64,000 nucleotides of DNA from positions 8,457,501 through 8,521,500 of the forward strand of contig CM072345.1 in assembly GCA_036874045.1 (NCBI GenBank), given 5' to 3'. The translations under genes and the position numbers were made by a program. The DNA is from Cymodocea nodosa. Taxonomy: Eukaryota > Streptophyta > Magnoliopsida > Alismatales > Cymodoceaceae. Below the pieces are notes generated by a model. The model worked only from the letters and a program-made list of their open reading frames with translations. It searched no databases and was not told the origin of the DNA. Position 1 is the first letter of the stretch; each line of letters starts with the position of its first letter. Of the stretch, positions 7,327 to 63,115 are shown piece after piece.

Positions 7327-7604
7327 TGGATCAATATCAGCCGTTCCTCTCAGTCATCATTTTATTGCGATATTCACCCTCGTATTCTTCTACCTGACGA
7401 CGGTTACGTAACACGTTCAATTTTTTTTTCCCCGAATTTTTCAATGCATAACGTAAACTCTTAACTCTACGTACACTCGTTCATTTTGTTTCGAAATTTA
7501 CAGATTTTCCCGGTGCAGGCACTCTTCATCCGTGGTCACATGCACCCACTATGTATTACATTGAATCTTCCAGTAAATGAGCATATATACAACTCTGTGT
7601 GTGG
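6858..7604. other. 3' flank of the O-fucosyltransferase gene and spacer
   Basis: The first part is probably 3' UTR. A pure AG dinucleotide run sits inside it at 7296-7322. No other gene is visible before the duplicated block that starts near 7605. Confidence 0.5.
7296..7322. repeat. (AG)n microsatellite
   Basis: About 13 uninterrupted AG units, followed by a short GATG-type run. Confidence 0.9.
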
Positions 7605-9495
7605 ACATTTATTGAGATACACCTCATCGATGCAAATATATATATACGTTCTGAGAAACGAGGTCGACGATTTACGGCAAGTAAATTCATTAAGAAGCTG
7701 CTCCTGCGGCCAACCCTAAACGACAAATCTCCTCGGATGGGGGCGAATCCCAGCGCGCTGCCTTCCGTTTCATCTCCTCCATATTCTCCACGCACCTATT
7801 CAGATCCATCCACCTCACTCGTTTCCTCAACGCCGCCGCCTCACTCCCGGCCACCTCATCGAATATTCTCTCCCACCCATCCTCCCACTTACCGCGAGCG
7901 TTGCACAACTTCAAACTCCCGTCCCTCCAATCCGTCCAGCACCCACCCGGTTTCGACGTCTTCGCAATGACCGTGACGCAGTCTCCGACGCACGCAGCAG
8001 TGCACGGCCTACACTTGACTCCGTTTAGCGGCCCGTGGCTGGCTATGGAGACCACCGGCACGACGTAGCCCTTGGGAGGGAACGGGTACGTCCGGTCGCT
8101 CAACACGCAAAAGGGTAGTTTTCGGGTCTGGAACGTTACGTTGGACGTGAGCAATTGTGACATGAACGCGGCTTCGGAGTTGAGCCGGCGTTTGCCGGCA
8201 GAGTCAAGCCGAGGGATGAGGGAGAGACGGGACAGGGCGACGGTGGAAGTGTTCCTGTCCCCAATGCCGAACCTATCGTTGAGGCCTAAACAGTGCGCTC
8301 CGGAGGGGATCAAGTAGGTGCCGGGGACGAAGTTGGACGGGTGGAGTGGAGCGGACCAGTAGCCGTCGACGCGGGTGCGGACGATCCAGTCGTACCTTAT
8401 GTTGGCTCGGGTCTCGTGCGCTTCGATCAACGCCAGACATCCCTCCACTAGATTGAAGTACTGCAATAATCCCTGTGGCAATTGATTTGGTCAATATCAA
8501 TAATATATGTGTACGTATGATCGGGGATTCCAGTGTCCAGGAGTCAAACGTACGATTTTGTACATAGCAAAGAAGGGAAGAATGCCGAGGGGGAGAAAAA
8601 AAGGCAAAGAAGAAACATGACCAAAAAAAAAACATAGAAAACGACGTATATACGCGGCTCAGCCGACCGACCTGGATGCCTTTGGGAGAGCCCGTGGAGG
8701 TGAGGACCCGGAAGTGGAAGTCCTTCTCCTCGATGTGCTCCGGCGAAAAGATTCTCACGGTGGCGATACTCGGGGCATGCCGGAGGATGGAGAACTTGAA
8801 GGCGTCCCTATCGAGCGGGCTGTTGAGGAAGAGATCCGCGTCCGGGTACTCCAGGAGGAGGTTGTTGATGATCGACGGGCCCGTGAGCTCAAACCTCCTG
8901 GCGCCACCCACAAGGCAGATCGCCACCTTCGACCCGTTCATCTTCCCATGGACATCGGCGCCTCTCACGTCCTTGGCGTCAGCTGCTGGTTGGGTCGAGG
9001 TGACGCTGGGCTGGATGGGGAAGAACAGAGATTTCAGGGAGGACGAGAGGATGGTACTGGTGGAAGTAAGGGAAGATAAGAGTAGCAAGAAGATGAAGAG
9101 GGAGAGAGGTGTCAGAAGGAAGAGACTGCAGCGACGGTACAAGTCCATAACACGCAACAGCAAGCCAGCTTCTTCACCTGAGCGTTATGGTAATAAAGAG
9201 GTCGATCGATAGCTATGGAGACGAGGAGGAGATATGGGCGGAATTAGGGTTTGGAGCGTCGAAGGTGATGAACACGGTGTTCGCCCGAGATACATGTAGG
9301 CTTCATGCATATTCTATTTATTTTAACAACGATAAATAGCAAATTCTTTCTTTTTGTTTGATATTAACGTTGCTTTAAATAAAATTCGCTTGATGTGGAA
9401 GACGCATCTTATATTTAAATCAAGAAGAATTACGTACTTATTTTTTGTCTATGAATTTTGCAGTTGCATTGGATAAATTTTTTAAAAATAGATTA
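7605..9495. repeat. direct segmental duplication, copy A
   Basis: This block and 14968-16824 are near-identical in the same orientation and about 7.35 kb apart. The match covers about 80 bp of 3' flank, both exons, the intron and about 330 bp upstream of the start codon. Copy A keeps about 30 bp near 9417-9447 that copy B lacks. The edges fade gradually and are approximate. Confidence 0.9.
7690..9163 (-). CDS. glycosyltransferase-like type II membrane protein of unknown function (possibly DUF7796), copy A
   Basis: Two exons on the minus strand: 9163-8672 and 8472-7690, joined in phase 0 (1275 nt, 424 aa). A second ATG five codons in (MDLYRR) is an equally good start. One hydrophobic segment at about residues 12-31 and a Ser/Thr-rich stem suggest a Golgi type II protein. 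The lumenal part starts with [19 protein letters not shown], and exon 2 holds [13 protein letters not shown] (191-203), which resembles a nucleotide-sugar or metal-binding Asp motif, plus a Cys-rich segment at about 318-343. I recall this layout from plant proteins annotated DUF7796, but no reaction is known to me. The intron is T-rich with a weak GTCGG donor. A near-identical copy lies at 15051-16523. The antisense frames over this gene are shadows. Confidence 0.75.
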
Positions 9496-12189: not shown

Positions 12190-14967
12190 CTCCTACTTAA
12201 ATTCCCATCTTGCCAAATGCCTAAATTTTATACTATTCATTTTAAAGTTTTTATCAATAAAATTTGCGATTAACTCATTTTTCTCATATCAGTCATCATA
12301 ATTCACATTAGCACAACTATCTCGTAAGATTCATGATTTACTTGTAAATGATTGTAATGAAATATAAATAATCCAATAAATATATGCACTTTTTAACACC
12401 TAACACCAGTCAACCATTGGATTCCGTTGTCATTGGCCTCCCTCGTACAAGCTATAGAGCTCACCCTTCACCAACCGTGTAGCCATGATCGCTCGTTGGG
12501 CCTCTCCACCAATGCAATGCCTCTACCATTTGACGCTCCGTGCAACTCCTCTCCTTATCAACGCGTCAAACTCCTTTGCAAATCGATGCAACCACCTTCA
12601 CTGAATGTCCGTTTAGCTTCCAGTCGCTTAAATCAATGTGACCACCCACATCTCTAGTCACTCACACCCGTCTACCTTCAACACTGTGGTTGTCACCTGT
12701 AAATCATGCAAATTGCTTGCTTCCTCTTGGGAATAAGTGAGCATGCATCACTGTTGCAGATCACTTAAGAATGAGCACTAGATCTATGACCAAGTGATTG
12801 TCCATGGTCACTACTTGACCATCCAATCGATGCACCCACCTACATAGCCATCATCTGAGAATCTTTTGGATACCTTGCCTTGGATCCGTAGCGACGCTGC
12901 TAATCTCTTTCACATAGATCTTTTTGTGCACAACACCAATCAGCCTTGGTTGTTGCTTGTATATGTTGTTGCTTCAAGACCTTGGGAGCTTGCACTAATA
13001 CCTACAAATCCCTCGGAACTTGCGTCATTAGATTCCGCCCTAATCGTCGAAAATCACTATCACAACCACTAAATTCTACTCGAAAACCTCAAAGCTCTCC
13101 CAAACTAGGTACATACCTATAGGTGCCCTTTGTTGTAACTTTTTCTGGAGTACCTACTACACATTTGTTCTAACACACCTTGAGAAAGCCCCACACCAGA
13201 TGTGGACTTGTCGATTAACCCTTTGATCATTACATCTTATTTAGTTAATGAACAACATTAAATAACTTGTAGATCTAAGTTCTTGGGCGTGACGTCTATT
13301 TGGTTTATGGATGTGAGGTCTACACTCTCAACAATATGCAACCCTAAGTATGTTAGAGGCCGACTCATCCAACACTTAGGAATTCTTTCCTTGCATCTAT
13401 GCATCTTGCAAGCTTGTGTTATGCATCTCCATACATAATTTGCTGGTTGTGTTGTCGATGGGTAGTAATGTATTTAGTCATGTTGCCTGATCAACATCGG
13501 GCCTTGACTCATTAAAAGCTAGGCCTATTTAGTCTAGGTCTATCTTCACACACAAATAGTGAATGTTTATACATGAGTATCTCCTAAACTTTTAGTTCTA
13601 TTTGTCTTAGACCTATTGGTCCATCCTCTTTTGGGCCTTTCAGTCAAATTTCTTTTCCTGTATTATACACTTGGATGCACTATATTTGATATACACATTA
13701 ACACCTATTAAGTATTTGAGAGATTTACCTTTGATCAGACATGTAGGGTGTTTAACGCATTTTCCATATATAACTAGAAAACTTACTTATAACTCTCTAA
13801 TTAGACTTGTTGACTTTATTCTCCTTTTTAAAGTACGAATGTCACTTACATGTGTTACATTATATCATATCTTATGGTTTTCCTAGTTTGTCTCTTTAAT
13901 AAATTAGGTGGTGACTTTTTTCTTCAAAATGTGAGAATTTCTAAGCGCCAAGTCAAGACATTAGCCTGTTCATTTCGTCAACAATGTTATCATGTTGTTC
14001 ATAATTAAAAATATTATAGATATTTATTTATATTGACATAATAACTTAAAATCTATCATAAATGCATTTGAAATAAATATTTTAAAAAACTTATTTATTT
14101 TAAATACATTGTTCACTCTTATTAGATTTTAAGTTAATATATTTAACATATATCATGAACATCTATAATATTTTTATATAATCATTGTCTACTATCTCAT
14201 TCTCCTTGGGGAAAAAGTATTGAACTTTTTCTTACTATCATAAAGATAATGGCTTGTGCTTCTAAAATATTGCAATTTATATATAATATGCGCCTCTCAC
14301 CACTCAATATTTCATACTCATTCTTTAAATTCCTTACGTCATACGTATCTTATATATATATATAATTGTATTGTAATAAATGTGAATGTTAGGGGTATTC
14401 TGGTAAAAAAAACCATTTTATTTTTCGCGATCGAGGATCAGAATTTTTCGTTAAAATCCCTATTTTTGCCCGCCTCTTCCTCGAATCTGCGGTCGATGGC
14501 CGTTTAACTCATCGAATCAACGAGCTGGGACGAGAGCCGATGACGAATGGCGAAACTGACGAGGTTTGGAGGTGAAAGAGGCAACGCAATCAACGATTTC
14601 TACATGGGAGAAGAAGTGGCGATCGTTCGTGTTGTAGTCGGGTGTGCGGCACCAGGGTCTCTATAGATCTGCATGTATACATACACATACAACCATTGTC
14701 AAAAAAAGACTAATAAAATCTGAGAGTCAATTAAACTGTTTTATATGCATCATGTAGGTGTTGTATTTGAAGGCTACACCATCTTTAATTTTTCTTAGAA
14801 TTGTCTTACAAAATGTATTCAGTAGGAGGACTTCATTTAGTTGATCATTACAATGATTTGATAGTATATTTGGATGCCACATATCATTTACTTAAAAATA
14901 AATTTTCGTCGGGAGAAGTTTAAAGAGCAAGACCATCTCTCTCTCTCTCTCTAAATATATATATATG
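9496..14967. other. spacer between the two duplicated genes; anonymous repeats
   Basis: No supportable gene. It holds TA microsatellites at about 11427-11446 and 12157-12187 and a hairpin-type element near 14003-14180. Moderately GC-rich stretches at about 10540-10780 and 12400-13100 have only short broken frames; they look like decayed retrotransposon DNA, but I could not place them in a family. A short GC-rich patch at 14440-14670 is unexplained. A (CT)n run ends at 14951, next to copy B of the duplication. Confidence 0.5.
14003..14180. mobile_element. MITE-like imperfect hairpin
   Basis: The left arm (about 14006-14057) and the reverse complement of the right arm (about 14122-14177) share AAAAATATTATAGAT and AACTTAAAATCT blocks in the same order. 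This gives an AT-rich foldback of about 175 bp with no coding capacity. Target-site duplications are not clear. Confidence 0.45.
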
Positions 14968-16824
14968 AACATTTTATTGAAATACACCTCATCAATGCAG
15001 ATGCATACGTTCCGAGAAACGAGGACAACGATTTACAGCGACTTCGATCATCAAGAAGCTGCTGCTGCGGCGGCCAACCCAAAACGACAAATCACCTCGG
15101 ATGGGGGCGAATCCCAGCGCGCTGCCTTCCGTTTCATCTCCTCCATATTCTCCACGCACCTATTCAGATCCATCCACCTCACTCGTTTCCTCACCGCCGC
15201 CGCCTCACTCCCGGCCACCTCATCGAATATTCTCTCCCACCCATCCTCCCACTTACCGCGAGCGTTGCACAACTTCAAACTCCCGTCCCTCCAATCCGTC
15301 CAGCACCCACCCGGTTTCGACGTCTTCGCAATGACCGTGACGCAGTCTCCGACGCACGCAGCAGTGCACGGCCAACACTTGACTCCGTTTAGCGGCCCGT
15401 GGCTGGCTATGGAGACCACCGGCACGACGTAGCCCTTGGGAGGGAACGGGCACGTCCGGTCGCTCAACACGCAAAAGGGTAGTTTTCGGGTCTGGAACGT
15501 TACGTTGGACGTGAGCAATTGTGACATGAACGCGGCTTCGGAGTTGAGCCGGCGTTTGCCGGCGGAGTCAAGCCGAGGGATGAGGGAGAGACGGGACAGG
15601 GCGACGGTGGAAGTGTTCCTGTCCCCAATGCCGAACCTATCGTTGAGGCCTAAACAGTGCGCTCCGGAGGGGATCAAGTAGGTGCCGGGGACGAAGTTGG
15701 ACGGGTGGAGTGGAGCGGACCAGAAGCCGTCGACGAGGGTGCGGACGATCCAGTTGTACCTTATGTTGACTCGGGTCTCGTGCGCTTCGATCAACGCCAG
15801 ACATCCCTCCACTAGATTGAAGTACTGCAATAATCCCTGTGGCAATTAATTTGGTCAATATCAATAATATATGTGTACGTATGATCGGGGATTCCAGTGT
15901 CCAGGAGTCAAACGTACGATTTTGTACATAGCAAAGAAGGGAAGAATGCCGAGGGGGAGAAAAAAAGGCAAAGAAGAAACATGACCAAAAAAAAAACATA
16001 GAAAACGACGTACATACGCGTTTCAGCCGACCTGGATGCCTTTGGGGGAGCCCGTGGAGGTGAGGACCCGGAAGTGGAAGTCCTTCTCCTCGATGTGCTC
16101 CGGCGAAAAGATTCTCACGGTGGCGATACTCGGGGCATGCCGGAGGATGGAGAACTTGAAGGCGTCCCTATCGAGCGGGCTGTTGAGGAAGAGATCCGCG
16201 TCCGGGTACTCCAGGAGGAGGTTGTTGATGATCGACGGGCCCGTGAGCTCAAACCTCCTGGCGCCACCCACAAGGCAGATCGCCACCTTCGACCCGTTCA
16301 TCTTCCCATGGACATCGGCGCCTCTCACGTCCTTGGCGTCAGCTGCTGGTTGGGTCGAGGTGACGCTGGGCTGGATGGGGAAGAACAGAGATTTCAGGGA
16401 GGATGAGAGGATGGTACTGGTGGAAGTAAGGGAAGATAAGAGTAGCAAGAAGATGAAGAGGGAGAGAGGTGTCAGAAGGAAGAGACTGCAGCGACGGTAC
16501 AAGTCCATAACACGCAACAGCAAGCCGGCTTCTTCACCTGGGCGTTATGGTAATAAAGAGGTCGATCGATAGTTATGGAGACGAGGAGGAGATATGGGCG
16601 GAATTAAGGTTTGGAGCGTCGAAGGTGATGAACACGGTGTTCGCCCGAGATACATGTAGGCTTCATACATATTCTATTTATTTTAACAACGATAAATAAC
16701 AAATTCTTTTTTTTCGTTTGATATTAACGTTGCTTTAAATAAAATTCGCTTGATGTGGAAGACGCATCTTATATTTTTGCCTATGAATTTTGTAATTGCA
16801 TTGTATAAATTTTTTAAAGACAGG
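14968..16824. repeat. direct segmental duplication, copy B
   Basis: Partner of 7605-9495. Relative to copy A it has a small deletion upstream of the gene, a 3-bp insertion near the stop codon and a 4-bp difference next to the splice donor. Confidence 0.9.
15051..16523 (-). CDS. glycosyltransferase-like type II membrane protein of unknown function (possibly DUF7796), copy B
   Basis: Exons 16523-16032 and 15836-15051 (1278 nt, 425 aa). The product of exon 1 (164 residues) is identical to copy A, with only two silent base changes seen. Exon 2 carries ten amino-acid changes and one extra Ala: A187V, D192N, R198L, Y202F, Y293C, R319W, L379V, E412V, L416F, G421A. Three of these fall in the conserved-looking block at 191-203, which becomes [13 protein letters not shown]. 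The reading frame, intron and splice borders are intact, so the gene may still make protein, but its activity may differ or be lost. About 330 bp of upstream DNA was duplicated with it, so part of the promoter is shared. Confidence 0.72.
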
Positions 16825-45530: not shown

Positions 45531-46630
45531 ATTTATTTTTAATAAAATTATTTTTTAATTTACGAATAACTAATAAGTTTTTCTTAGTAGTTGTGTAATT
45601 TACTTAAACATCATTTAGAGTTTTGCTAGTATAATAAATCACTTTAGGAGATTTTTCTATTTTCTTACTTAGCACAACTTTTACAACAAAATTAGATACA
45701 TCACATGTTAACTCAAATGAGTGACTCTAATTAAAAGCTTGTATTATAGGAGTTGTAATTAGACTAGTCTTAAGCTTAAAGAATGATTTCTTACAATTTC
45801 TATTTAAGTTAAATGACACATCCTTTAATAAATTGGTTAAATGTCTAGTTATCTTGCTAAAATCTTTGATAAATCTCATATAAAACTCTACATGTCCTAA
45901 AAAGAATCTAATATCTTTTATTATTTTGGATTCTAGTAAATTTGAAATAACTTCTATTTTGCTTTATCTGGCTCCAACCCTTTCATTCAAATGACATGTC
46001 CTAAAACTATTTCTTTCTTAACCATAAAATGACATTTTTCTCAATTCAAAACTAGATTTTTTTCTAAACAACGAACTAATACTAATTCTAAATTTTTCAA
46101 ACACACTTCAAATGAAACTTCATATACTATAAAATCATCTATAAATATTTCAAGAAAATCATTTTCCATTCTTGTGAAAATACCTTGCATGTACATTTGA
46201 AAAATAGTTGGTGCATTACATAACTCAAATGACATTCTATTAAAAGCATATGTATCATTAAGACAAGTGAAAGTTATTTTCTTTTAATCTTCTAATACTA
46301 TTGGAATTTGGTTATATCTTGAATACCTATATAGGAAACAAAAATACTCTTAGCATGCTAATTTTTCTAGCATTTGATCTATAAATGAAAAAGGAAAATA
46401 TTTTTTCTTAGTTACAGCATTTAGCTTCCTATAATTTATACATACTCTCTAGTTTATTTGAATTCTTGTGGGTATCAAGTCTTAACTTTCATTCCTAATT
46501 ACTGTTATCCTAGATTTCTTTGAAACTACATAGATTGGACTCACTCATGAACTATCAGAAATCAAATATATGATATCATTATCTAACCATTTCACTATTT
46601 CCTAACTATGTAACTTAATGGACTCAGCCA
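45531..46630 (-). mobile_element. Ty3/gypsy pol relic (RT to RNase H), broken
   Basis: On the minus strand, broken by stops and small frameshifts, the reverse transcriptase reads in order: SPIYVVSKKS, INYRKLNAVTKK, FIDQMLEKLA, ELCNAPTIFQ, then FIDDFIVYEVSF as the active-site block, and EKNLVLN. The RNase H start (YYTSKTLND) follows near 45620. The order and wording fit Athila/Tat-like Ty3/gypsy elements. The 5' side of the element is cut exactly where the tandem array begins at 46631. Dead copy. Confidence 0.8.
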
Positions 46631-47849
46631 ATCCTGTAAAATATAATAAAACAATTCACATATAAATACTACACAAGTGTACACAACATTTATTAATATT
46701 TAAAAAGGAAATTTTCAATCATTTAGAAATGATATTTAATTAACGTTAATTTATTTCAAATTATACATATTCTTTAATTAAGTCTCAAGTTTATGTAAAT
46801 GTAGCATAATGACCTAATTCTCTTCTAATAAGCTAAATAACATGTCATGTACTACTAATATTATGTATGTTTTCATTTTAAACATGTAGCACAATAGAGT
46901 TGTTGTCTAAGGGGAGGTGTACACGTGACAAATGTACATTGTTTAGAATGAAAAAATGTATAATATTAATGATTAATGAATGGTTAATTACATAGTATTT
47001 AACTTATCATATAATAATTAAGTCATTATATCACAATTATAAGATTGCATGTCTTAATTAAAGAATATACATAATTTCAAAGAATTAGTGATTAATTATC
47101 ATTTATAAATGAATTAAAAATTACTTCTTTCGCATATCAAGTGTTAAATGCTATATAAATATTTATTTTACTAAATTACAAAACTGAATGAATCTATTAA
47201 GTTAAGCTTAATTCAATGAGGTCGGTCCGTTGAGTTATAATTAAGTGAACGAAGTAAGTCCGTTGAGTTACACTAACTCTACAGATTAGTTATTTTCTAA
47301 TATTTGATTAAGAATAGTTATAGGAAATTTGAAGAAAATTACATTACATGAATCATGCCATATAAAATAGGTGTGTCCTAGTTTGACCCTAAAAAAATAG
47401 ATCGCCACACATTTTCTTGGAAAAAAAAAGATTTACAATAGTTATGATTTAAAAAAAGAAATATATATATATATGATAATACACGTCACACTTCTATATA
47501 AAAAGAATCAAACTATAACAATGACGAAAAAAGAAAAACATTGTCACACTTTTCTCAAAAATGAGATCGACTTACGATGATAATTTTTTAAAAAATGAAT
47601 GAACGTTATGATAGTAAAATGAAGATGAAAATGAATGAACATTATGATAATTAAAAAAAAAAGTCATTCGCCACACTTCTCATGTAAAATGAATTCAAAC
47701 TATGATAGTAATGAGTTGAAAATATACTTATTTTCTTGGAAAGACGCCACTGGAAATAATGAAAATGAATGAACGTTACTTGAGAAGATGAATGGTAAAC
47801 TTTTCACTAATATGTAATTATAAACTAAACTATCCAAAAAAAAAATTTA

Positions 47850-48345
47850 ATAATTTTTCTTAAACTTAATTGTATCACATATGCTCTAATTATATTACCT
47901 CATTTCCTATCACAAATTTGATCATATAATTCTATCTTTTATCCTTATTACCTCAATAACTTCGTCTTCTAACTTTTATACTTCATTCCCACACTTATCT
48001 GTTCTTATGTATCGTAATTTAAAACCACTGTCTTTAATTAATTTAGAATATTCTCCAATAAATTTAATTTCTTACAAACATGATGCGTGAATTTTCCATC
48101 TTATCATTATACTTACTAATTTCACTCTTATCAATCATGGTTCCTAAATTTCAAGTTGCTAACGTAACTTTAGTGTTTTGGATCAACTTATTTATCGACA
48201 CGGATCCATTAACGTGTGAAAATCCTCGTTTATTTTTATCTATATTCAAACATTGATGCAAATACTCTACTTTAAGAATACGCACCTAAGATGTACAACG
48301 TTTTTCTCGTATTTTCTTTTCATTATGCTCGAAGTCCAATATTTA
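47850..48345 (-). mobile_element. RTE LINE endonuclease fragment in U, unit 1
   Basis: Minus-strand reading gives SKLIKDSGFKLRYIRTDKCG followed by a broken LEDEVIEVIRIKDRII. This aligns with the endonuclease domain of RTE-type LINEs and with the better-preserved relic at 51430-52885, including their shared 5' flank. Confidence 0.6.
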
Positions 48346-48579
48346 AGTCTTATAAATAATTTAATTCTACCATATGTTAATCCTCCTTTATTTGAGTCTG
48401 AAATTAGCTACGATACTCTGCAGGTAGAGTTAAGTACTATATTACATAAAATATTTATATTTATAAAGTCTATTACAACATAAAATATATCATGTAATAA
48501 CATGAAGATTATTACAATTACTTTACGTAAAATACAGATAAAAGATAATGCACTAATCAGACATCATCATCCTTTATTC

Positions 48580-48930
48580 AAAAATGTTTAAAAAGCGCCG
48601 GCTGAGAGACGCCAAACACAAAAGGCAACTTAATTGAAAAACCGTCGAAGAAAACGTCAAATCAAATGCATAGGGGAATGACTAGATTGCTTACACGGAG
48701 AACATTGAAACCATTGGAGGATAAATCTAATTTTTCACAAATGCATTAAATAAAAGCCGAAGATCGAGTACAAGTTGATTTCTCCTCCGTCCCAGGACTA
48801 GAATCGCAGAACCCACATTGGGAAAAATAATTGTACAAAGCCAAACACACCTACCAATCGACGGTAACGAAATGCGCCCACGATGAACCAGCCGACCAAC
48901 CCACGTGAACGGAATAAATCGGGTCGGTCG
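48580..48930. other. GC-richer, exon-like island in U, unit 1
   Basis: About 350 bp with near-balanced base composition inside otherwise AT-rich DNA. The minus strand has a short frame rich in hydrophobic residues that ends at a TAG near 48801. It resembles a last exon plus 3' UTR, but I recognise no protein. The island recurs in units 2 and 3. Confidence 0.3.
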
Positions 48931-49677
48931 TGAACCGAAATAGGTTAATATTAGTTAAGGACTAGAAAGTTATAGGTGTATATCAAATATTAAAATTATA
49001 TTATAGACTTTAAAAGTGTGTTTGATAACATTTGTTTTGAAAGTAGACTTTTTTGAGAATGAAATTGTAATTGTAAATTAAAAGAATATTTAAAAAAAGA
49101 AATCAAAAGTGATATTTTATAAAATGAGTAGTATTATTTTTCTTTTCAAATTTATCTTAGGGGTGAAGCGTTTTACAAGTATAAATGAATATGCTATTTG
49201 TACATATAATGAGTATTTATTATTAATTTAATAATTAACATAATACGTAATAATGAAGTTTATAATATGTAAGCATAATACATAATATCGATAACTTTTA
49301 TGATACGTATGATTAATAATACATGTTATTTTGGTTCATATGTAATATATTTTAATGTACATTATATTATATAATTAATGATTAAATCTTATAATTTAGT
49401 GAATAAAATTTTATTTTTAATGATGACAAAAAATACATAAATAATTTTTTTTTTTTTGAGTATGATCGACGTTTCACGCAAAAATCAATCAATCCTTTCC
49501 GTCACGAGCAATCATTCGCACCTTCTTCTCTTCTTGGTCTACGTTAATATTTGCAGGTGTCACATGTACTTAAAAAATACTCAATACTTCAACATGATGC
49601 ATTAAAATATAACACAACCAATCTGTCCAGCCACAATTAGAAAGGATTCGCGTAGCCACCTTCCTTTCTTTACCCTG

Positions 49678-49690
49678 CACGTGCCTATAA
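49678..49690 (+). promoter_or_regulatory. G-box next to TATA box, first GNAT gene
   Basis: CACGTG at 49678-49683 is followed after two bases by TATAA at 49686-49690, about 165 bp before the start codon. The overlap-like spacing suggests that a bHLH or bZIP factor at the G-box could affect TBP access. This segment is absent upstream of the third gene. Confidence 0.45.
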
Positions 49691-49854
49691 GGAAAATGCA
49701 AGCTACCGTAAAGCATCTTCGTCCTCGTCCCTCTGGATCAAGCCTATCAGCCTATCACCACGATGCAGAATACCTATCAAACACACCTTAAGATTATAAC
49801 CCTTTTTAGATACGATTCGTAAAGCCACCCACCGGCACCGTCAAGCCTATCGCC

Positions 49855-50517
49855 ATGACGTCCCCTACCGGCTCCATCGTCTCCGCCCGCGTCCGCCTCG
49901 CCACCAGCGAAGACATGCCTCACCTCTACAGCATGATCCTCCAACAGAATGAATTCCATCGCTCGTCGCATATCTTCTCCGCCGACGAGGCCCAGCTCTC
50001 CTCCTCCCTCTTCCCCAAGACTCCCGACGCCGCCTCACCGTTTCACTCCGTCACCGTCCTCATCATCGACCTTCACCCACAGATCGACTCCCCTCCCTCC
50101 AACCCCAACCCACACTTCCACCCCATCCTCCGCCGGATCGATCTGGGCCGCCCGGTCGAGGACGACGACGAAGAAATCTCCTTCTTCGAGAAGGCAGACG
50201 GATGGGTGACGGCTGGATTCGTTACGTTCTTCCCCAACTACTCGACCTTAAATGCGAAGAAGGGCTTCTTCGTGGAGAACTTGTTCGTAAGGAGGGCCTT
50301 CAGGAGGAAAGGGTTGGGGAGGATGCTGCTGTCCGCGGTAGCGAAGAAGGCGGCAGACATGGGGTTGGGACAGATGGAGTGGTGGGTGCTCGACTGGAAC
50401 TCCAATGCCATCGGCTTCTACAAGGAGATGGGGGCGGACGTCATGCCGGATTGGAGGACCTGCCGGCTCACCGGCGACTCTCTCCAGGCCTACCGTTCCG
50501 CCGGTCAAGGTGATTGA
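49855..50517 (+). CDS. GNAT N-acetyltransferase, NATA/SSAT-like, paralogue A copy 1
   Basis: Intronless, GC-rich, 220 aa. It matches plant GNATs related to ornithine/diamine N-acetyltransferase (NATA) and tyramine N-feruloyltransferase, which move an acyl group from CoA to an amine. Seen: ARVRLATSEDMP at 11-22, AGFVTFFPNYS (120-130), the CoA pyrophosphate loop RRKGLG (150-155), EWWVLDWNSNAIGFYKEMGA with the expected catalytic Tyr189, and CRLTGD. The insert at about 57-110 is longer than in SSAT. Odd points: the usual FERLTHLF is FHRSSHIF (34-41), FLAK is LNAK, and the acidic pair before the CoA loop is EN instead of ED (N142). A poly-A signal is at 50618. No targeting peptide is seen, so it is probably cytosolic. 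Its substrate is unknown. Confidence 0.9.
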   Translation: MTSPTGSIVSARVRLATSEDMPHLYSMILQQNEFHRSSHIFSADEAQLSSSLFPKTPDAASPFHSVTVLIIDLHPQIDSPPSNPNPHFHPILRRIDLGRPVEDDDEEISFFEKADGWVTAGFVTFFPNYSTLNAKKGFFVENLFVRRAFRRKGLGRMLLSAVAKKAADMGLGQMEWWVLDWNSNAIGFYKEMGADVMPDWRTCRLTGDSLQAYRSAGQGD

Positions 50518-51429
50518 GGGTTTGTTTATTTTAGTTGTAAGGGTCGAGTGATTTGCAAGTTTGTAGTGACTTTTTTAAGTGTGTGTCTTTTTAGTATGAC
50601 TTTTATGGTAGCCGTGAAATAAAAGAAGTAATAAATTAAAAGTGATATTTGCTATGTAGTTTTAACTTTCCTTCTCTTTTCTAACTTTATCAGTGAAGTT
50701 AAAAAATATATATAAATTTATATATTATTAGCATATATAATAAACAATTAGTAATAGTAATTAATCTACATGTATATATTAATAATTTTTGTAATTAACA
50801 TCAATACATAATAATGATATGGTAATTAATATATTACATATATTACTAATAATATTGTAATTAATAAATTACATATATTAATCTTAATTAATTAATAATA
50901 TATAAATTACATATATTATCTATGTTATTAATAATACGATAATCAATATAGTAATAGTAATATATTTCATTATCTAATATAACTATGACTAAGACATATA
51001 ACATTTTGTACTAAGGTCTAATTATCACGTATTTCTTTGAAACTAGAATTTAGAAAACCTCGAATACTGAGACTAAGCCAAGTATATCATTTTATTTCTA
51101 TTGTGTATATAATAATACAGTATTGTGACTGGGTTTTATATTTAAAATATTCATTCATTATTAATTTATGTTAATTCTCACATTTGACCAAGAGTCATAA
51201 CAACAATATGCATAGCTTACAATGATTACCTTTCATTTTCAATAATTTACATGTAAAATAAATAAGTCTTCTACGATCAAGTTAAACATCTATACAATAT
51301 ACAATAATTATGAGTTTCTTATAAATGTTATAAAATACATAAGTCTTAAAAATGCATGAATAATGACATATTAACTTATAGTTAACCAAGTTTATGTCAA
51401 TAACAAATAACATACATTAAGATATTTAT

Positions 51430-52885
51430 CCTTGAATTTCCTTAGTTATTTCATTCATAACTAAAGCAAATTGATATGGCCTTAGAGGACCATATACTGA
51501 TGTAAACCTGTTTCTATTGAAAATTCTTTAATTTCTCCTCTAATAATTTTACTACTAATAACTTCTCTTTCATATATGTTCTTTATAATATCAATATATC
51601 TTATTGATACACTTTGTCTTTCCAAAACTCATCAGAGTAGGTTTCTAGGCACTTTAGTATAAGTTTTTTTTTCTAAATCAATGAATCATATAGAGGTCCG
51701 TTTTCTTAACTTTAAAATTTTCTTAGCATTCTTTCTCGTTAGCCTATACTTCTCTATATTTTCTTCAATTTTAAATTTATGATAGGTTTTATAGCATTCT
51801 TTTTTGTCTTTTCTTATCCTTTGTATATCTTCATTTTCACTACTAGGAGCTTTCCTACGTAATTGTTCTAAATTTTCCTTAGTAATCTTTTTTATATAAG
51901 TAGTCATTTCATTTCAAAGTTTATTTATCTCACCATCTAATTTCCATTTTTCTTCCTTTAACAACTTATCTTTTAATATCATTTCCTTGTCTTCTTTAGA
52001 TTCCACCACCTAATTCTTGAATTCTTATGAACTTTAATATTTTTCTTCTTAATCTTAATATTAACATCTAATACTAACAACCTATGTTGTGTAATTAAGG
52101 TTTCTCTTAAAATAATGTTATAATCTTTAATCATTTTTATCAATTTTTTATAGCATTTGAACCACATCTAAATGTGATTAAATGTTCCTCTTTTTCTAAA
52201 GTATTTACCACTAAAGAGTTGGAAGCTATGCCAAAATCTAAGATTAAATTTCTCAAAAAAAAAATCCTCTATTTTCCTCTCCCACATGATCATTTAGATC
52301 TTTCCAATAAAGAACTCTTCACTAATAGACAAACCATGAACTGAACTATCCAAATCATTTTAAAATTTCTATTTAATAACTTCTCCTAAACCTACTTGTG
52401 GAGCACATACACTAATTATATTAACTTTCTCATTTCTTAGTCATTATAATTACATCTTCTATCCTTATTTCCTTGATAACTTGGTCTTTTAAAGTTTTAC
52501 CAACTATTATTACAACTTCATTTTTACATCTATCGTTTTTAGAATAACACAATTTAAAACCACTTTCCTTGATTAACCTAGATATTTTTTCTCGCCCATT
52601 TAATTTATTGCAATCATAATATGTTAATTTTCCTTTTTATCGTTATACTCGTTGATTTCACATTCTTACTAGCTAAGGTTCCTTCATTCTAAATTACTAG
52701 CCTAATTTTAATATTTGGAATTAATGTTTTTACCCACACCTATCTATTAAGGTGTAAAAACTTAATTTTTTTTATTTTCACCTACATTAATTCAAGCTTC
52801 AATAATGTAGAATCTCTAATTTAAGAATGTTAAACCTAGAGTGTGCAATGTTTCTTTTTTTCTTTCTTTTCGTTACATTTGAGAT
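51430..52885 (-). mobile_element. RTE-type LINE relic (endonuclease and RT parts), unit 1
   Basis: Minus-strand translation runs from SGFKLCYSKNDRCKNE through VNIISVCAPQVGL and TQHRLLVLDVNIKIKKKN with RIRWWNLKK (endonuclease end), a Lys-rich linker, then DLEKTYTKVPRN and a LLWVLE..SIRYIDIIK-like RT segment. The order matches plant RTE LINE polyproteins, with an internal deletion before the RT and several stops. Dead copy. Confidence 0.8.
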
Positions 52886-54192
52886 CTAACATAAGGCCTC
52901 GTCAAGAGGGTTATTCTCCGGTGAATATTTTGGATTTATGTTATGAAGGATTAACATGTATTTACAACCGACTATCCTGTAAAATATAATAAAACAATTC
53001 ACATATAAATATTACACAAGTGTACACAACATTTACTAATATTTAAAAAGGAAATTTTCAATCATTTAGAAATGATATTTAATTAACGTTAATTTATTTC
53101 AAATTATACATATTCTTTAATTAAGTCTCAGGTTTATGTAAATGTAGCATAATGACCTAATTCTCTTCTAATAAGCTAAATAACATGTCATGCACTACTA
53201 ATATTATGTATGTTTTCATTTTAAACATGTAGCACAATAGAGTTGTTGTCTAAGGGGAGGTGTGCCCGTGACAAATGTACATTGTTTAGAATGAAAAAAT
53301 GTATAATATTAATGATTAATGAATGGTTAATTACATAGTATTTAACTTATCATATAATAATTAAGTCATTATATCACAATTATAAGATTGCATGTCTTAA
53401 TTAAAGAATATACATAATTTCAAAGAATTAGTGATTAATTATCATTTATAAATGAATTAAAAATTACTTCTTTCGCATATCAAGTGTTAAATGCTATATA
53501 AATATTTATTTTACTAAATTACAAAACTGAATGAATCTATTAAGTTAAGCTTAATTCAATGAGGTCGGTCCGTTGAATTATAATTAAGTGAACGAAGTAA
53601 GTCCGTTGAGTTACACTAACTCTACAGATTAGTTATTTTCTAATATTTGATTAATAATAGTTATAAGAAATTTGAAGAAAATTACATTACATGAATCATG
53701 CCATATAAAATAGGTGTGTCCTAGTTCGACCCTAAAAAAATAGATCGCCACACATTTTCTTGGAAAAAAAAAGATTTACAATAGTTATGATTTAAAAAAA
53801 GAAATATATATATATATGATAATACACGTCACACTTCTATATAAAAAGAATCAAATTATAACAATGACGAAAAAAGAAAAACATTGTCACACTTTTCTCA
53901 AAAATGAGATCGACTTACGATGATAATTTTTTAAAAAATGAATGAACGTTATGATAGTAAAATGAAGATGAAAATGAATGAACATTATGATAATTAAAAA
54001 AAAAAGTCATTCGCCACACTTCTCATGTAAAATGAATTCAAACTATGATAGTAATGAGTTGAAAATATACTTATTTTCTTGGAAAGACGCCACTGGAAAT
54101 AATGAAAATGAATGAACGTTACTTGAGAAGATGAATGGTAAACTTTTCACTAATATGTAATTATAAACTAAACTATCCAAAAAAAAAATTTA

Positions 54193-54688
54193 ATAATTTT
54201 TCTTAAACTTAATTGTATCACATATGCTCTAATTATATTACCTCATTTCCTATCACAAATTTGATCATATAATTCTATCTTTTATCCTTATTACCTCAAT
54301 AACTTCGTCTTCTAACTTTTATACTTCATTCCCACACTTATCTGTTCTTATGTATCGTAATTTAAAACCACTGTCTTTAATTAATTTAGAATATTCTCCA
54401 ATAAATTTAATTTCTTACAAACATGATGCGTGAATTTTCCATCTTATCATTATACTTACTAATTTCACTCTTATCAATCATGGTTCCTAAATTTCAAGTT
54501 GCTAACGTAACTTTAGTGTTTTGGATCAACTTATTTATCGACACGGATCCATTAACGTGTGAAAATCCTCGTTTATTTTTATCTATATTCAAACATTGAT
54601 GCAAATACTCTACTTTAAGAATACGCACCTAAGATGTACAACGTTTTTCTCGTATTTTCTTTTCATTATGCTCGAAGTCCAATATTTA
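54193..54688 (-). mobile_element. RTE LINE endonuclease fragment in U, unit 2
   Basis: Counterpart of 47850-48345. The inferred crossover interval (53857-54336) ends inside it. Confidence 0.6.
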
Positions 54689-54922
54689 AGTCTTATAAAT
54701 AATTTAATTCTACCATATGTTAATCCTCCTTTATTTGAGTCTGAAATTAGCTACGATACTCTGCAGGTAGAGTTAAGTACTATATTACATAAAATATTTA
54801 TATTTATAAAGTCTATTACAACATAAAATATATCATGTAATAACATGAAGATTATTACAATTACTTTACGTAAAATACAGATAAAAGATAATGCACTAAT
54901 CAGACATCATCATCCTTTATTC

Positions 54923-55273
54923 AAAAATGTTTAAAAAGCGCCGGCTGAGAGACGCCAAACACAAAAGGCAACTTAATTGAAAAACCGTCGAAGAAAACGT
55001 CAAATCAAATGCATAGGGGAATGACTAGATTGCTTACACGGAGAACATTGAAACCATTGGAGGATAAATCTAATTTTTCACAAATGCATTAAATAAAAGC
55101 CGAAGATCGAGTACAAGTTGATTTCTCCTCCGTCCCAGGACTAGAATCGCAGAACCCACATTGGGAAAAATAATTGTACAAAGCCAAACACACCTACCAA
55201 TCGACGGTAACGAAATGCGCCCACGATGAACCAGCCGACCAACCCACGTGAACGGAATAAATCGGGTCGGTCG
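54923..55273. other. GC-richer, exon-like island in U, unit 2
   Basis: Identical by eye to 48580-48930. Confidence 0.3.
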
Positions 55274-56020
55274 TGAACCGAAATAGGTTAATATTAGTTA
55301 AGGACTAGAAAGTTATAGGTGTATATCAAATATTAAAATTATATTATAGACTTTAAAAGTGTGTTTGATAACATTTGTTTTGAAAGTAGACTTTTTTGAG
55401 AATGAAATTGTAATTGTAAATTAAAAGAATATTTAAAAAAAGAAATCAAAAGTGATATTTTATAAAATGAGTAGTATTATTTTTCTTTTCAAATTTATCT
55501 TAGGGGTGAAGCGTTTTACAAGTATAAATGAATATGCTATTTGTACATATAATGAGTATTTATTATTAATTTAATAATTAACATAATACGTAATAATGAA
55601 GTTTATAATATGTAAGCATAATACATAATATCGATAACTTTTATGATACGTATGATTAATAATACATGTTATTTTGGTTCATATGTAATATATTTTAATG
55701 TACATTATATTATATAATTAATGATTAAATCTTATAATTTAGTGAATAAAATTTTATTTTTAATGATGACAAAAAATACATAAATAATTTTTTTTTTTTT
55801 GAGTATGATCGACGTTTCACGCAAAAATCAATCAATCCTTTCCGTCACGAGCAATCATTCGCACCTTCTTCTCTTCTTGGTCTACGTTAATATTTGCAGG
55901 TGTCACATGTACTTAAAAAATACTCAATACTTCAACATGATGCATTAAAATATAACACAACCAATCTGTCCAGCCACAATTAGAAAGGATTCGCGTAGCC
56001 ACCTTCCTTTCTTTACCCTG

Positions 56021-56033
56021 CACGTGCCTATAA
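56021..56033 (+). promoter_or_regulatory. G-box next to TATA box, second GNAT gene
   Basis: Same CACGTG and TATAA arrangement as at 49678-49690, in the identical promoter of the second copy. Confidence 0.45.
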
Positions 56034-56197
56034 GGAAAATGCAAGCTACCGTAAAGCATCTTCGTCCTCGTCCCTCTGGATCAAGCCTATCAGCCTATCA
56101 CCACGATGCAGAATACCTATCAAACACACCTTAAGATTATAACCCTTTTTAGATACGATTCGTAAAGCCACCCACCGGCACCGTCAAGCCTATCGCC

Positions 56198-56860
56198 ATG
56201 ACGTCCCCTACCGGCTCCATCGTCTCCGCCCGCGTCCGCCTCGCCACCAGCGAAGACATGCCTCACCTCTACAGCATGATCCTCCAACAGAATGAATTCC
56301 ATCGCTCGTCGCATATCTTCTCCGCCGACGAGGCCCAGCTCTCCTCCTCCCTCTTCCCCAAGACTCCCGACGCCGCCTCACCGTTTCACTCCGTCACCGT
56401 CCTCATCATCGACCTTCACCCACAGATCGACTCCCCTCCCTCCAACCCCAACCCACACTTCCACCCCATCCTCCGCCGGATCGATCTGGGCCGCCCGGTC
56501 GAGGACGACGACGAAGAAATCTCCTTCTTCGAGAAGGCAGACGGATGGGTGACGGCTGGATTCGTTACGTTCTTCCCCAACTACTCGACCTTAAATGCGA
56601 AGAAGGGCTTCTTCGTGGAGAACTTGTTCGTAAGGAGGGCCTTCAGGAGGAAAGGGTTGGGGAGGATGCTGCTGTCCGCGGTAGCGAAGAAGGCGGCAGA
56701 CATGGGGTTGGGACAGATGGAGTGGTGGGTGCTCGACTGGAACTCCAATGCCATCGGCTTCTACAAGGAGATGGGGGCGGACGTCATGCCGGATTGGAGG
56801 ACCTGCCGGCTCACCGGCGACTCTCTCCAGGCCTACCGTTCCGCCGGTCAAGGTGATTGA
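56198..56860 (+). CDS. GNAT N-acetyltransferase, NATA/SSAT-like, paralogue A copy 2
   Basis: 220 aa, identical in protein (and, as far as I can see, in DNA, promoter and 3' flank) to the gene at 49855-50517. All features noted there apply, including N142 and the altered 34-41 block. Identity over coding and non-coding DNA alike means a very recent copy or an assembly duplication, not selection on the protein. If real, it doubles the dose of paralogue A. Confidence 0.9.
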   Translation: MTSPTGSIVSARVRLATSEDMPHLYSMILQQNEFHRSSHIFSADEAQLSSSLFPKTPDAASPFHSVTVLIIDLHPQIDSPPSNPNPHFHPILRRIDLGRPVEDDDEEISFFEKADGWVTAGFVTFFPNYSTLNAKKGFFVENLFVRRAFRRKGLGRMLLSAVAKKAADMGLGQMEWWVLDWNSNAIGFYKEMGADVMPDWRTCRLTGDSLQAYRSAGQGD

Positions 56861-57772
56861 GGGTTTGTTTATTTTAGTTGTAAGGGTCGAGTGATTTGCA
56901 AGTTTGTAGTGACTTTTTTAAGTGTGTGTCTTTTTAGTATGACTTTTATGGTAGCCGTGAAATAAAAGAAGTAATAAATTAAAAGTGATATTTGCTATGT
57001 AGTTTTAACTTTCCTTCTCTTTTCTAACTTTATCAGTGAAGTTAAAAAATATATATAAATTTATATATTATTAGCATATATAATAAACAATTAGTAATAG
57101 TAATTAATCTACATGTATATATTAATAATTTTTGTAATTAACATCAATACATAATAATGATATGGTAATTAATATATTACATATATTACTAATAATATTG
57201 TAATTAATAAATTACATATATTAATCTTAATTAATTAATAATATATAAATTACATATATTATCTATGTTATTAATAATACGATAATCAATATAGTAATAG
57301 TAATATATTTCATTATCTAATATAACTATGACTAAGACATATAACATTTTGTACTAAGGTCTAATTATCACGTATTTCTTTGAAACTAGAATTTAGAAAA
57401 CCTCGAATACTGAGACTAAGCCAAGTATATCATTTTATTTCTATTGTGTATATAATAATACAGTATTGTGACTGGGTTTTATATTTAAAATATTCATTCA
57501 TTATTAATTTATGTTAATTCTCACATTTGACCAAGAGTCATAACAACAATATGCATAGCTTACAATGATTACCTTTCATTTTCAATAATTTACATGTAAA
57601 ATAAATAAGTCTTCTACGATCAAGTTAAACATCTATACAATATACAATAATTATGAGTTTCTTATAAATGTTATAAAATACATAAGTCTTAAAAATGCAT
57701 GAATAATGACATATTAACTTATAGTTAACCAAGTTTATGTCAATAACAAATAACATACATTAAGATATTTAT

Positions 57773-59228
57773 CCTTGAATTTCCTTAGTTATTTCATTCA
57801 TAACTAAAGCAAATTGATATGGCCTTAGAGGACCATATACTGATGTAAACCTGTTTCTATTGAAAATTCTTTAATTTCTCCTCTAATAATTTTACTACTA
57901 ATAACTTCTCTTTCATATATGTTCTTTATAATATCAATATATCTTATTGATACACTTTGTCTTTCCAAAACTCATCAGAGTAGGTTTCTAGGCACTTTAG
58001 TATAAGTTTTTTTTTCTAAATCAATGAATCATATAGAGGTCCGTTTTCTTAACTTTAAAATTTTCTTAGCATTCTTTCTCGTTAGCCTATACTTCTCTAT
58101 ATTTTCTTCAATTTTAAATTTATGATAGGTTTTATAGCATTCTTTTTTGTCTTTTCTTATCCTTTGTATATCTTCATTTTCACTACTAGGAGCTTTCCTA
58201 CGTAATTGTTCTAAATTTTCCTTAGTAATCTTTTTTATATAAGTAGTCATTTCATTTCAAAGTTTATTTATCTCACCATCTAATTTCCATTTTTCTTCCT
58301 TTAACAACTTATCTTTTAATATCATTTCCTTGTCTTCTTTAGATTCCACCACCTAATTCTTGAATTCTTATGAACTTTAATATTTTTCTTCTTAATCTTA
58401 ATATTAACATCTAATACTAACAACCTATGTTGTGTAATTAAGGTTTCTCTTAAAATAATGTTATAATCTTTAATCATTTTTATCAATTTTTTATAGCATT
58501 TGAACCACATCTAAATGTGATTAAATGTTCCTCTTTTTCTAAAGTATTTACCACTAAAGAGTTGGAAGCTATGCCAAAATCTAAGATTAAATTTCTCAAA
58601 AAAAAAATCCTCTATTTTCCTCTCCCACATGATCATTTAGATCTTTCCAATAAAGAACTCTTCACTAATAGACAAACCATGAACTGAACTATCCAAATCA
58701 TTTTAAAATTTCTATTTAATAACTTCTCCTAAACCTACTTGTGGAGCACATACACTAATTATATTAACTTTCTCATTTCTTAGTCATTATAATTACATCT
58801 TCTATCCTTATTTCCTTGATAACTTGGTCTTTTAAAGTTTTACCAACTATTATTACAACTTCATTTTTACATCTATCGTTTTTAGAATAACACAATTTAA
58901 AACCACTTTCCTTGATTAACCTAGATATTTTTTCTCGCCCATTTAATTTATTGCAATCATAATATGTTAATTTTCCTTTTTATCGTTATACTCGTTGATT
59001 TCACATTCTTACTAGCTAAGGTTCCTTCATTCTAAATTACTAGCCTAATTTTAATATTTGGAATTAATGTTTTTACCCACACCTATCTATTAAGGTGTAA
59101 AAACTTAATTTTTTTTATTTTCACCTACATTAATTCAAGCTTCAATAATGTAGAATCTCTAATTTAAGAATGTTAAACCTAGAGTGTGCAATGTTTCTTT
59201 TTTTCTTTCTTTTCGTTACATTTGAGAT
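57773..59228 (-). mobile_element. RTE-type LINE relic, unit 2
   Basis: Identical counterpart of 51430-52885 with the same stops and deletion, so it was copied with the unit and did not insert independently. Confidence 0.8.
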
Positions 59229-60535
59229 CTAACATAAGGCCTCGTCAAGAGGGTTATTCTCCGGTGAATATTTTGGATTTATGTTATGAAGGATTAACAT
59301 GTATTTACAACCGACTATCCTGTAAAATATAATAAAACAATTCACATATAAATATTACACAAGTGTACACAACATTTACTAATATTTAAAAAGGAAATTT
59401 TCAATCATTTAGAAATGATATTTAATTAACGTTAATTTATTTCAAATTATACATATTCTTTAATTAAGTCTCAGGTTTATGTAAATGTAGCATAATGACC
59501 TAATTCTCTTCTAATAAGCTAAATAACATGTCATGCACTACTAATATTATGTATGTTTTCATTTTAAACATGTAGCACAATAGAGTTGTTGTCTAAGGGG
59601 AGGTGTGCCCGTGACAAATGTACATTGTTTAGAATGAAAAAATGTATAATATTAATGATTAATGAATGGTTAATTACATAGTATTTAACTTATCATATAA
59701 TAATTAAGTCATTATATCACAATTATAAGATTGCATGTCTTAATTAAAGAATATACATAATTTCAAAGAATTAGTGATTAATTATCATTTATAAATGAAT
59801 TAAAAATTACTTCTTTCGCATATCAAGTGTTAAATGCTATATAAATATTTATTTTACTAAATTACAAAACTGAATGAATCTATTAAGTTAAGCTTAATTC
59901 AATGAGGTCGGTCCGTTGAATTATAATTAAGTGAACGAAGTAAGTCCGTTGAGTTACACTAACTCTACAGATTAGTTATTTTCTAATATTTGATTAATAA
60001 TAGTTATAAGAAATTTGAAGAAAATTACATTACATGAATCATGCCATATAAAATAGGTGTGTCCTAGTTCGACCCTAAAAAAATAGATCGCCACACATTT
60101 TCTTGGAAAAAAAAAGATTTACAATAGTTATGATTTAAAAAAAGAAATATATATATATATGATAATACACGTCACACTTCTATATAAAAAGAATCAAATT
60201 ATAACAATGACGAAAAAAGAAAAACATTGTCACACTTTTCTCAAAAATGAGATCGACTTACGATGATAATTTTTTAAAAAATGAATGAACGTTATGATAG
60301 TAAAATGAAGATGAAAATGAATGAACATTATGATAATTAAAAAAAAAAGTCATTCGCCACACTTCTCATGTAAAATGAATTCAAACTATGATAGTAATGA
60401 GTTGAAAATATACTTATTTTCTTGGAAAGACGCCACTGGAAATAATGAAAATGAATGAACGTTACTTGAGAAGATGAATGGTAAACTTTTCACTAATATG
60501 TAATTATAAACTAAACTATCCAAAAAAAAAATTTA

Positions 60536-61031
60536 ATAATTTTTCTTAAACTTAATTGTATCACATATGCTCTAATTATATTACCTCATTTCCTATCACA
60601 AATTTGATCATATAATTCTATCTTTTATCCTTATTACCTCAATAACTTCGTCTTCTAACTTTTATACTTCATTCCCACATTTATCTGTTCTTATGTATCG
60701 TAATTTAAAACCACTGTCTTTAATTAATTTAGAATATTCTCCAATAAATTTAATTTCTTACAAACATGATGCGTGAATTTTCCATCTTATCATTATACTT
60801 ACTAATTTCACTCTTATCAATCATGGTTCCTAAATTTCAAGTTGCTAACGTAACTTTAGTGTTTTGGATCAACTTATTTATCGACACGGATCCATTAACG
60901 TGTGAAAATCCTCGTTTATTTTTATCTATATTCAAACATTGATGCAAAGACTCTACTTTAAGAATACGCACCTAAGATGTACAACGTTTTTCTCGTATTT
61001 TCTTTTCATTATGCTCGAAGTCCAATATTTA
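60536..61031 (-). mobile_element. RTE LINE endonuclease fragment in U, unit 3
   Basis: Counterpart of 47850-48345. Both unit-3 private bases lie in this fragment. Confidence 0.6.
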
Positions 61032-61265
61032 AGTCTTATAAATAATTTAATTCTACCATATGTTAATCCTCCTTTATTTGAGTCTGAAATTAGCTACGAT
61101 ACTCTGCAGGTAGAGTTAAGTACTATATTACATAAAATATTTATATTTATAAAGTCTATTACAACATAAAATATATCATGTAATAACATGAAGATTATTA
61201 CAATTACTTTACGTAAAATACAGATAAAAGATAATGCACTAATCAGACATCATCATCCTTTATTC

Positions 61266-61616
61266 AAAAATGTTTAAAAAGCGCCGGCTGAGAGACGCCA
61301 AACACAAAAGGCAACTTAATTGAAAAACCGTCGAAGAAAACGTCAAATCAAATGCATAGGGGAATGACTAGATTGCTTACACGGAGAACATTGAAACCAT
61401 TGGAGGATAAATCTAATTTTTCACAAATGCATTAAATAAAAGCCGAAGATCGAGTACAAGTTGATTTCTCCTCCGTCCCAGGACTAGAATCGCAGAACCC
61501 ACATTGGGAAAAATAATTGTACAAAGCCAAACACACCTACCAATCGACGGTAACGAAATGCGCCCACGATGAACCAGCCGACCAACCCACGTGAACGGAA
61601 TAAATCGGGTCGGTCG
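61266..61616. other. GC-richer, exon-like island in U, unit 3
   Basis: Identical by eye to 48580-48930. Confidence 0.3.
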
Positions 61617-62264
61617 TGAACCGAAATAGGTTAATATTAGTTAAGGACTAGAAAGTTATAGGTGTATATCAAATATTAAAATTATATTATAGACTTTAAA
61701 AGTGTGTTTGATAACATTTGTTTTGAAAGTAGACTTTTTTGAGAATGAAATTGTAATTGTAAATTAAAAGAATATTTAAAAAAAGAAATCAAAAGTGATA
61801 TTTTATAAAATGAGTAGTATTATTTTTCTTTTCAAATTTATCTTAGGGGTGAAGCGTTTTACAAGTATAAATGAATATGCTATTTGTACATATAATGAGT
61901 ATTTATTATTAATTTAATAATTAACATAATACGTAATAATGAAGTTTATAATATGTAAGCATAATACATAATATCGATAACTTTTATGATACGTATGATT
62001 AATAATACATGTTATTTTGGTTCATATGTAATATATTTTAATGTACATTATATTATATAATTAATGATTAAATCTTATAATTTAGTGAATAAAATTTTAT
62101 TTTTAATGATGACAAAAAATACATAAATAATTTTTTTTTTTTTGAGTATGATCGACGTTTCACGCAAAAATCAATCAATCCTTTCCGTCACGAGCAATCA
62201 TTCGCACCTTCTTCTCTTCTTGGTCTACGTTAATATTTGCAGGTGTCACATGTACTTAAAAAAT

Positions 62265-63115
<851 letters not shown>

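Follow-up and report, generated by a model that had tools for sequence, protein, structure and literature searches.

A chimeric repeat copy beside an exactly duplicated NATA1-like gene in Cymodocea nodosa suggests a recent unequal exchange

The window analysed here is a stretch of 64,000 nucleotides of Cymodocea nodosa (C17:8457501-8521500; contig CM072345.1 of assembly GCA_036874045.1), and searches covered the whole genome of 374.6 Mb in 28 contigs. As assembled, the window holds an array in the order U1-A1-U2-A2-U3-B, with all members on the plus strand. U is a repeat of 2,948 bp, whose copies lie at 46631..49578 (U1), 52974..55921 (U2) and 59317..62264 (U3), and a genome search finds it at full length at these three places only. 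From the first to the last, the three copies reach over 15,634 bp. A1 (49855..50517) is a NATA1-like GNAT acetyltransferase gene with a single open frame of 220 aa; A2 (56198..56860) is the same in sequence, and B (62444..63115), a diverged paralogue with a single open frame of 223 aa, is 86.9% identical to A at the DNA level over 670 bp. The lag between units is exactly 6,343 bp, and alignment of 46631-55921 with 52974-62264 gives 99.86% identity over 9,291 bp with 0 gaps.

An earlier note on this DNA, made from the letters, had called the genes acetyltransferases, and the label holds: A and B match the Pfam GNAT family (PF00583) with E-values of 2.8e-15 and 2.8e-16, above the curated cut-off, and their nearest PDB chains are those of Arabidopsis NATA1/GNAT8 (8xbn, 8rmz), with alignments that cover almost all of both proteins. 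A six-frame search of the genome with A returned four places, namely A1, A2, B and a fourth NATA1-like gene, C, which lies 50 kb downstream on the same strand as the array (C17:8570460-8571122, at ~113 kb in window coordinates). Its identity is 93.7% with A (701 bp) and 88.3% with B (678 bp), and it is nearer to A than B is. The similarity of A and C extends into their flanks (0 of 200 shuffles reach the score). No match of U length is found near C, where the 70 kb downstream of the window yields only pieces of 76 to 175 bp at 78-88% identity. It should also be noted that, judged by eye, a short stretch present once in C apparently occurs twice in the 5' flank of A (49647-49854). When B serves as reference, 14 amino-acid changes belong to A alone and 5 to C, and two methods put dN/dS for the A-C pair at 0.65 and 1.16; from these values the duplicated gene A seems to evolve fast. 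The 'ED' pair, which may matter for catalysis, is present in B, while A has EN and C has DN. A and C thus carry N where D stands in the five alignments shown among eight matched PDB sequences, five sequences that appear to represent two proteins, NATA1 and GNAT8.

A base-by-base comparison of the three U copies, 2,948 bp each, finds differences at 13 sites and 0 indels. U2 agrees with U3 at 11 of the 13, all in the 5' part (offsets 38 to 882, 0-based in U), the first at 46669/53012/59355 and the last at 47513/53856/60199 in U1, U2 and U3, respectively. At the other two, in the 3' part, U2 agrees with U1 (47994/54337/60680 and 48263/54606/60949; offsets 1363 and 1632). There is no site at which U1 and U3 agree against U2. 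The count, the division into 11 and 2, and every coordinate given in the earlier note are thereby reproduced, and the two classes are not intermixed along U: a single switch separates them, with 0 exceptions. The switch falls in a 480-bp interval of U2 in which U1 and U3 do not differ (53857..54336), again as had been proposed; it is the second longest run of unbroken U1-U3 identity, the longest being the 1,315 bp after the last variant site. All other positions of the 9,291 aligned bp are the same, and every base of 47514..54336 equals that of 53857..60679 at the lag of 6,343 bp, over 6,823 bp.

This stretch includes the A genes with their tails, which are the same at 3,395 of 3,395 bp. At the rate by which U1 and U3 differ, ~15 differences between A1 and A2 would be expected as against the 0 observed (P 3e-7); the 3' part of U, with its lower rate, gives an expectation of 3.3 (P 0.04). 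The order of the two site classes, 5' and then 3', has a chance of 1/78 from order alone. Because the class order and the lack of A1-A2 differences occur together, the pattern is not a chance one.

Every variant site is, however, a singleton of U1 or of U3 in the bare alignment, and for this reason the alignment also fits three U copies that were identical at the start and of which the two end copies later acquired private mutations, with no chimera at all. The two accounts differ in the ancestral base, which could be inferred from same-genome family copies of dispersed repeats that lie inside U. Three such repeats cover 9 of the 13 sites, and masking of the variant sites in the query kept them from influencing the alignment. 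The first is a fragment at 46637..46884 of U1 (U 7-254), listed at 37 further places with 78-85% identity, of which 17 were used; it covers 46669, 46693, 46788 and 46850. The second, of ~420 bp at 46940..47361 (U 310-731), which we take to be MITE-like, is listed at 37 further places with 82-88% identity, of which the best 25 were used; it covers 47234, 47312 and 47323. The third is a LINE-like fragment at about 47798..48324 (U ~1168-1694; minus strand, judged only from motif words), which covers 47994 and 48263. Among the 40 candidates scored of 418, it is found at 37 further places and as two short pieces; 37 copies were used, the one in the window's own A tail included, and they align at about 67-75% identity only.

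At four sites on the 5' side, the base of U1 is the one most frequent in the family, and U2 and U3 have a different one in common. The family base is C in 16 of 17 copies at offset 38, where U2 and U3 have T, and G in 24 of 25 at offset 603, where they have A; at offset 681, 23 of the 25 copies cover the site with G 18, A 5 and T 0, and U2 and U3 have T, while offset 692 shows G 17 and A 6 in 23 copies. Offset 157 is not polarised (G 8, A 7, T 1, gap 1). Offsets 62 and 219 lean the opposite way, toward U1 as the derived copy (0.88 and 0.75), with few counts to go by, since A, the base most frequent in the family at both (14 and 16 of 17), is present in neither U1 nor U3. On the 3' side, 27 of the 37 copies cover offset 1632 with G 17, A 6, C 2, gap 2 and T 0; U3 has G, and U1 and U2 have T. 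Offset 1363 is not polarised (C 22, T 15 of 37). The 3' side of the mosaic therefore consists of two sites, one of them well polarised (offset 1632), and the chance that at least one derived base is common to U1 and U2 on this side is 0.98 on the counts before the extra LINE-like copies were added.

Most likely, then, the 5' part of U2 has derived bases in common with U3, and its 3' part has one in common with U1. Private mutations in the end copies would require the ancestral base in U2 at each of the nine polarised sites; the probability of this is 9e-8, with priors taken from the family frequencies, sites treated as independent and the counts before the extra LINE-like copies. Under a clock, it would also be odd for all 13 changes to fall in U and 0 in A (P=6e-4). 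Insofar as the family copies give the ancestral base, the account by private mutation is very unlikely, to the point of being barely credible, in spite of its agreement with the singleton pattern. With derived bases of the U3 type before the switch and of the U1 type after it, U2 is a U3/U1 chimera, as a statement on the assembled sequence. The same had been claimed from the singletons; polarity by family copies gives the claim stronger support.

The earlier note had further placed the exchange next to a LINE relic. A dispersed repeat does overlap the last ~196 bp of the 480-bp interval, and a related relic stands at the end of the A1 tail (51393..52966, minus strand, likewise judged only from motif words), ending within 10 bp of U2. 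The LINE label, which we presume from reverse-transcriptase-like words, found no counterpart in Pfam: five pieces, picked by length and motif words, gave no reverse-transcriptase match, and only two unrelated matches below the cut-off were seen.

Two other ideas about U were dropped. U does not look like a mobile element, given that no matching terminal repeats or clear target-site duplication could be seen by eye and that it occurs in full only three times in the genome. Nor does it appear to share its ancestry with the A/B duplication, an idea that had arisen from the similar spacing, about 105 bp by eye, between the end of U and TATA-like words: the first 105 bp after U in A and in B are unrelated (80 of 200 shuffles reach the score), and from the end of U to the start codon a weak similarity of A and B (6 of 200 shuffles) is confined to a 20-bp piece. 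As to other repeats in the neighbourhood, one at 45570-46603 stops 28 bp before U1 and is 80% identical over 1,040 bp to a site ~54 kb downstream on the same contig. The window also contains a second tandem duplication, 7602-9416 and 14966-16776 (1,819 aligned bp, 97.0% identity, 12 gap positions), which bears a DUF7796 gene on the minus strand (Pfam, on the first copy) and is more diverged than the U array.

What kind of event would make such a chimera is suggested by the frame of the duplicated unit. It is bounded by long direct repeats (U1 and U3 are 99.56% identical over 2,948 bp), its junction lies at homologous positions with no base gained or lost (0 indels in 9,291 aligned bp), and the junction repeat combines both parental types, the 3' type by one well polarised site. 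The switch joins the two parents at one and the same position, with the register exact and nothing added or lost, as homologous exchange of U1 with U3 would give; by end joining, the register would probably have been lost. In the proposed course of events, two chromatids with the parental haplotype U1-A-U3-B would have been misaligned, so that U3 on one lay against U1 on the other. Inside the 480 bp where U1 and U3 are the same, the two would then have undergone a homology-directed exchange, in the simplest case a non-allelic crossover. Its product would be U1-A-(U3 5'/U1 3')-A-U3-B, that is, a 6,343-bp tandem duplication with one more NATA1-like gene and a chimeric U as its footprint. We consider it probable, from the evidence in the assembled letters, that a recent homology-mediated unequal exchange of U1 with U3 within the 480 bp duplicated the 6,343-bp unit. 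Of the single unequal crossover between U1 and U3 that the earlier note had envisaged, homologous exchange stands as the simplest source. The narrower wording does not stand as well, given that crossover between sisters, crossover between homologues and template switching in repair all give the same product, and given that an earlier exchange is likely as well.

The sign of such an earlier exchange is the uneven divergence of U1 and U3: 11 of their differences fall in the 5'-most 883 bp, as against 2 in the remaining 2,065 bp (p=8e-4, 20,000 random placements). One crossover leaves this clustering unexplained. It would follow from an earlier exchange, from conversion, or from a round of gain and loss in which U3 took over the 3' part of U1, and the strong unevenness makes at least one earlier exchange or conversion between U1 and U3 likely. 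A more far-reaching version, that U keeps recombining, with the array gaining and losing A units by exchange in U and successive cycles passing U1 sequence to the 3' part of U3, is possible, if rather doubtful. It would account for copies of U that are 99.6% alike, and most so toward the genes, beside A and B that are 13% apart.

The same unevenness suggests that some conversion or exchange has been at work at this array, which bears on whether conversion could have made the chimera itself. In this case, conversion in an older array of three units would have copied U3 into the 5' part of U2 and U1 into its 3' part, or the other way round, and would have homogenised A1 and A2 too. Conversion between tandem genes is known in plants, as at HMA4 of Arabidopsis halleri (PMC3749932), and mixed repeats from conversion occur alongside some Arabidopsis duplications (PMC5101643). 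However, the 6,823 identical bases would need at least two tracts, or one of more than 6 kb, meeting at one switch point. The earlier note had ranked gene conversion as the less simple alternative, and on the number and length of tracts we agree that it would be less economical; as the origin of the present array it is decidedly improbable.

A source of the same letters that the earlier note did not consider is the assembler. If the plant had U1-A-U3-B, and the U-A loop were walked twice, or overlapping contigs or haplotypes misjoined at the wrong U, the middle U would be entered from the tail of A, like U3, and left into A, like U1, so that an assembly loop would write the same chimera; exact register and exact identity of A1 and A2 are predicted as well. 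False duplications on the same scaffold are documented, and gaps between the copies are given as one of their marks (both in PMC9516828). Here, in contrast, there is 0 N in the 144 kb around the copies and hence no gap between them. The 374.6 Mb in 28 contigs would also resemble a long-read, scaffolded assembly, a two-unit parent would have been directly visible in reads that exceed U-A-U (9,291 bp) plus anchors, and an allelic false duplication usually leaves heterozygous differences between the copies, of which A1 and A2 have 0. With these points on both sides, we regard an artefact as unlikely, albeit with a weight that cannot be neglected. A feature of the assembly seen in passing is that 13 of the 20 contigs whose length was looked at are sized at multiples of 2,500 bp, as if cut on the grid of a Hi-C map. 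Observed are the mosaic with its polarity, a register kept to the base and a duplicated unit with 0 differences; we infer the place of the event in the plant rather than the assembler, its nature as a crossover and the partners, sisters or homologues.

Under unequal exchange in the plant, the duplication is probably very young. The 0 differences in 6,343 bp set an upper bound near 0.05% divergence, or ~18,000 to 59,000 years under three substitution rates, a rough dating with assumed rates.

The mechanism is a textbook one, and if the assembly is right the array is a clear case of a familiar process. Among the best literature matches listed, none deals with this array, which says little. A close precedent is the MSH2-AT3G18530-AT3G18535 locus of Arabidopsis thaliana, where copy-number variation by NAHR has been described (PMC5101643). 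As in C. nodosa, two near-identical direct repeats flank the genes there (1,238 bp, 99%, with 11 variable sites mostly in one half), the junction switches repeat type, mostly within 537 bp of unbroken identity, and the repeat, like U, is found nowhere else in its genome. The Arabidopsis work covers many accessions, reciprocal deletions and junction PCR, and includes some patchy junction repeats, whereas our case comprises one assembly, a 2,948-bp repeat with 13 sites, one clean switch and one duplicated gene. The HMA4 triplication of A. halleri, with its ectopic gene conversion, is similar to our array in that tandem copies of a plant are partly homogenised; there the coding sequences are the homogenised part (99-99.3%; PMC3749932), while here it is the upstream U that is 99.6% alike, with the coding sequences of A and B 13% apart.

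If the preferred reading is right, C. nodosa has a tandem duplication so young that 0 mutations separate the copies; the exchange is located to within 480 bp, and both parents are still present next to each other. Dispersed repeats inside a recombining repeat would also offer, by way of polarity, a route to a chimera from a single assembly, where singletons alone fail. In Arabidopsis, NATA1 acts on putrescine and ornithine (PMC13317450). Should exchange in U be recurrent, the copy number of the NATA1-like gene would be a standing polymorphism in the species, and if copy number does vary, exchange in a defined repeat would be linked to the dosage of a NATA1-related gene.
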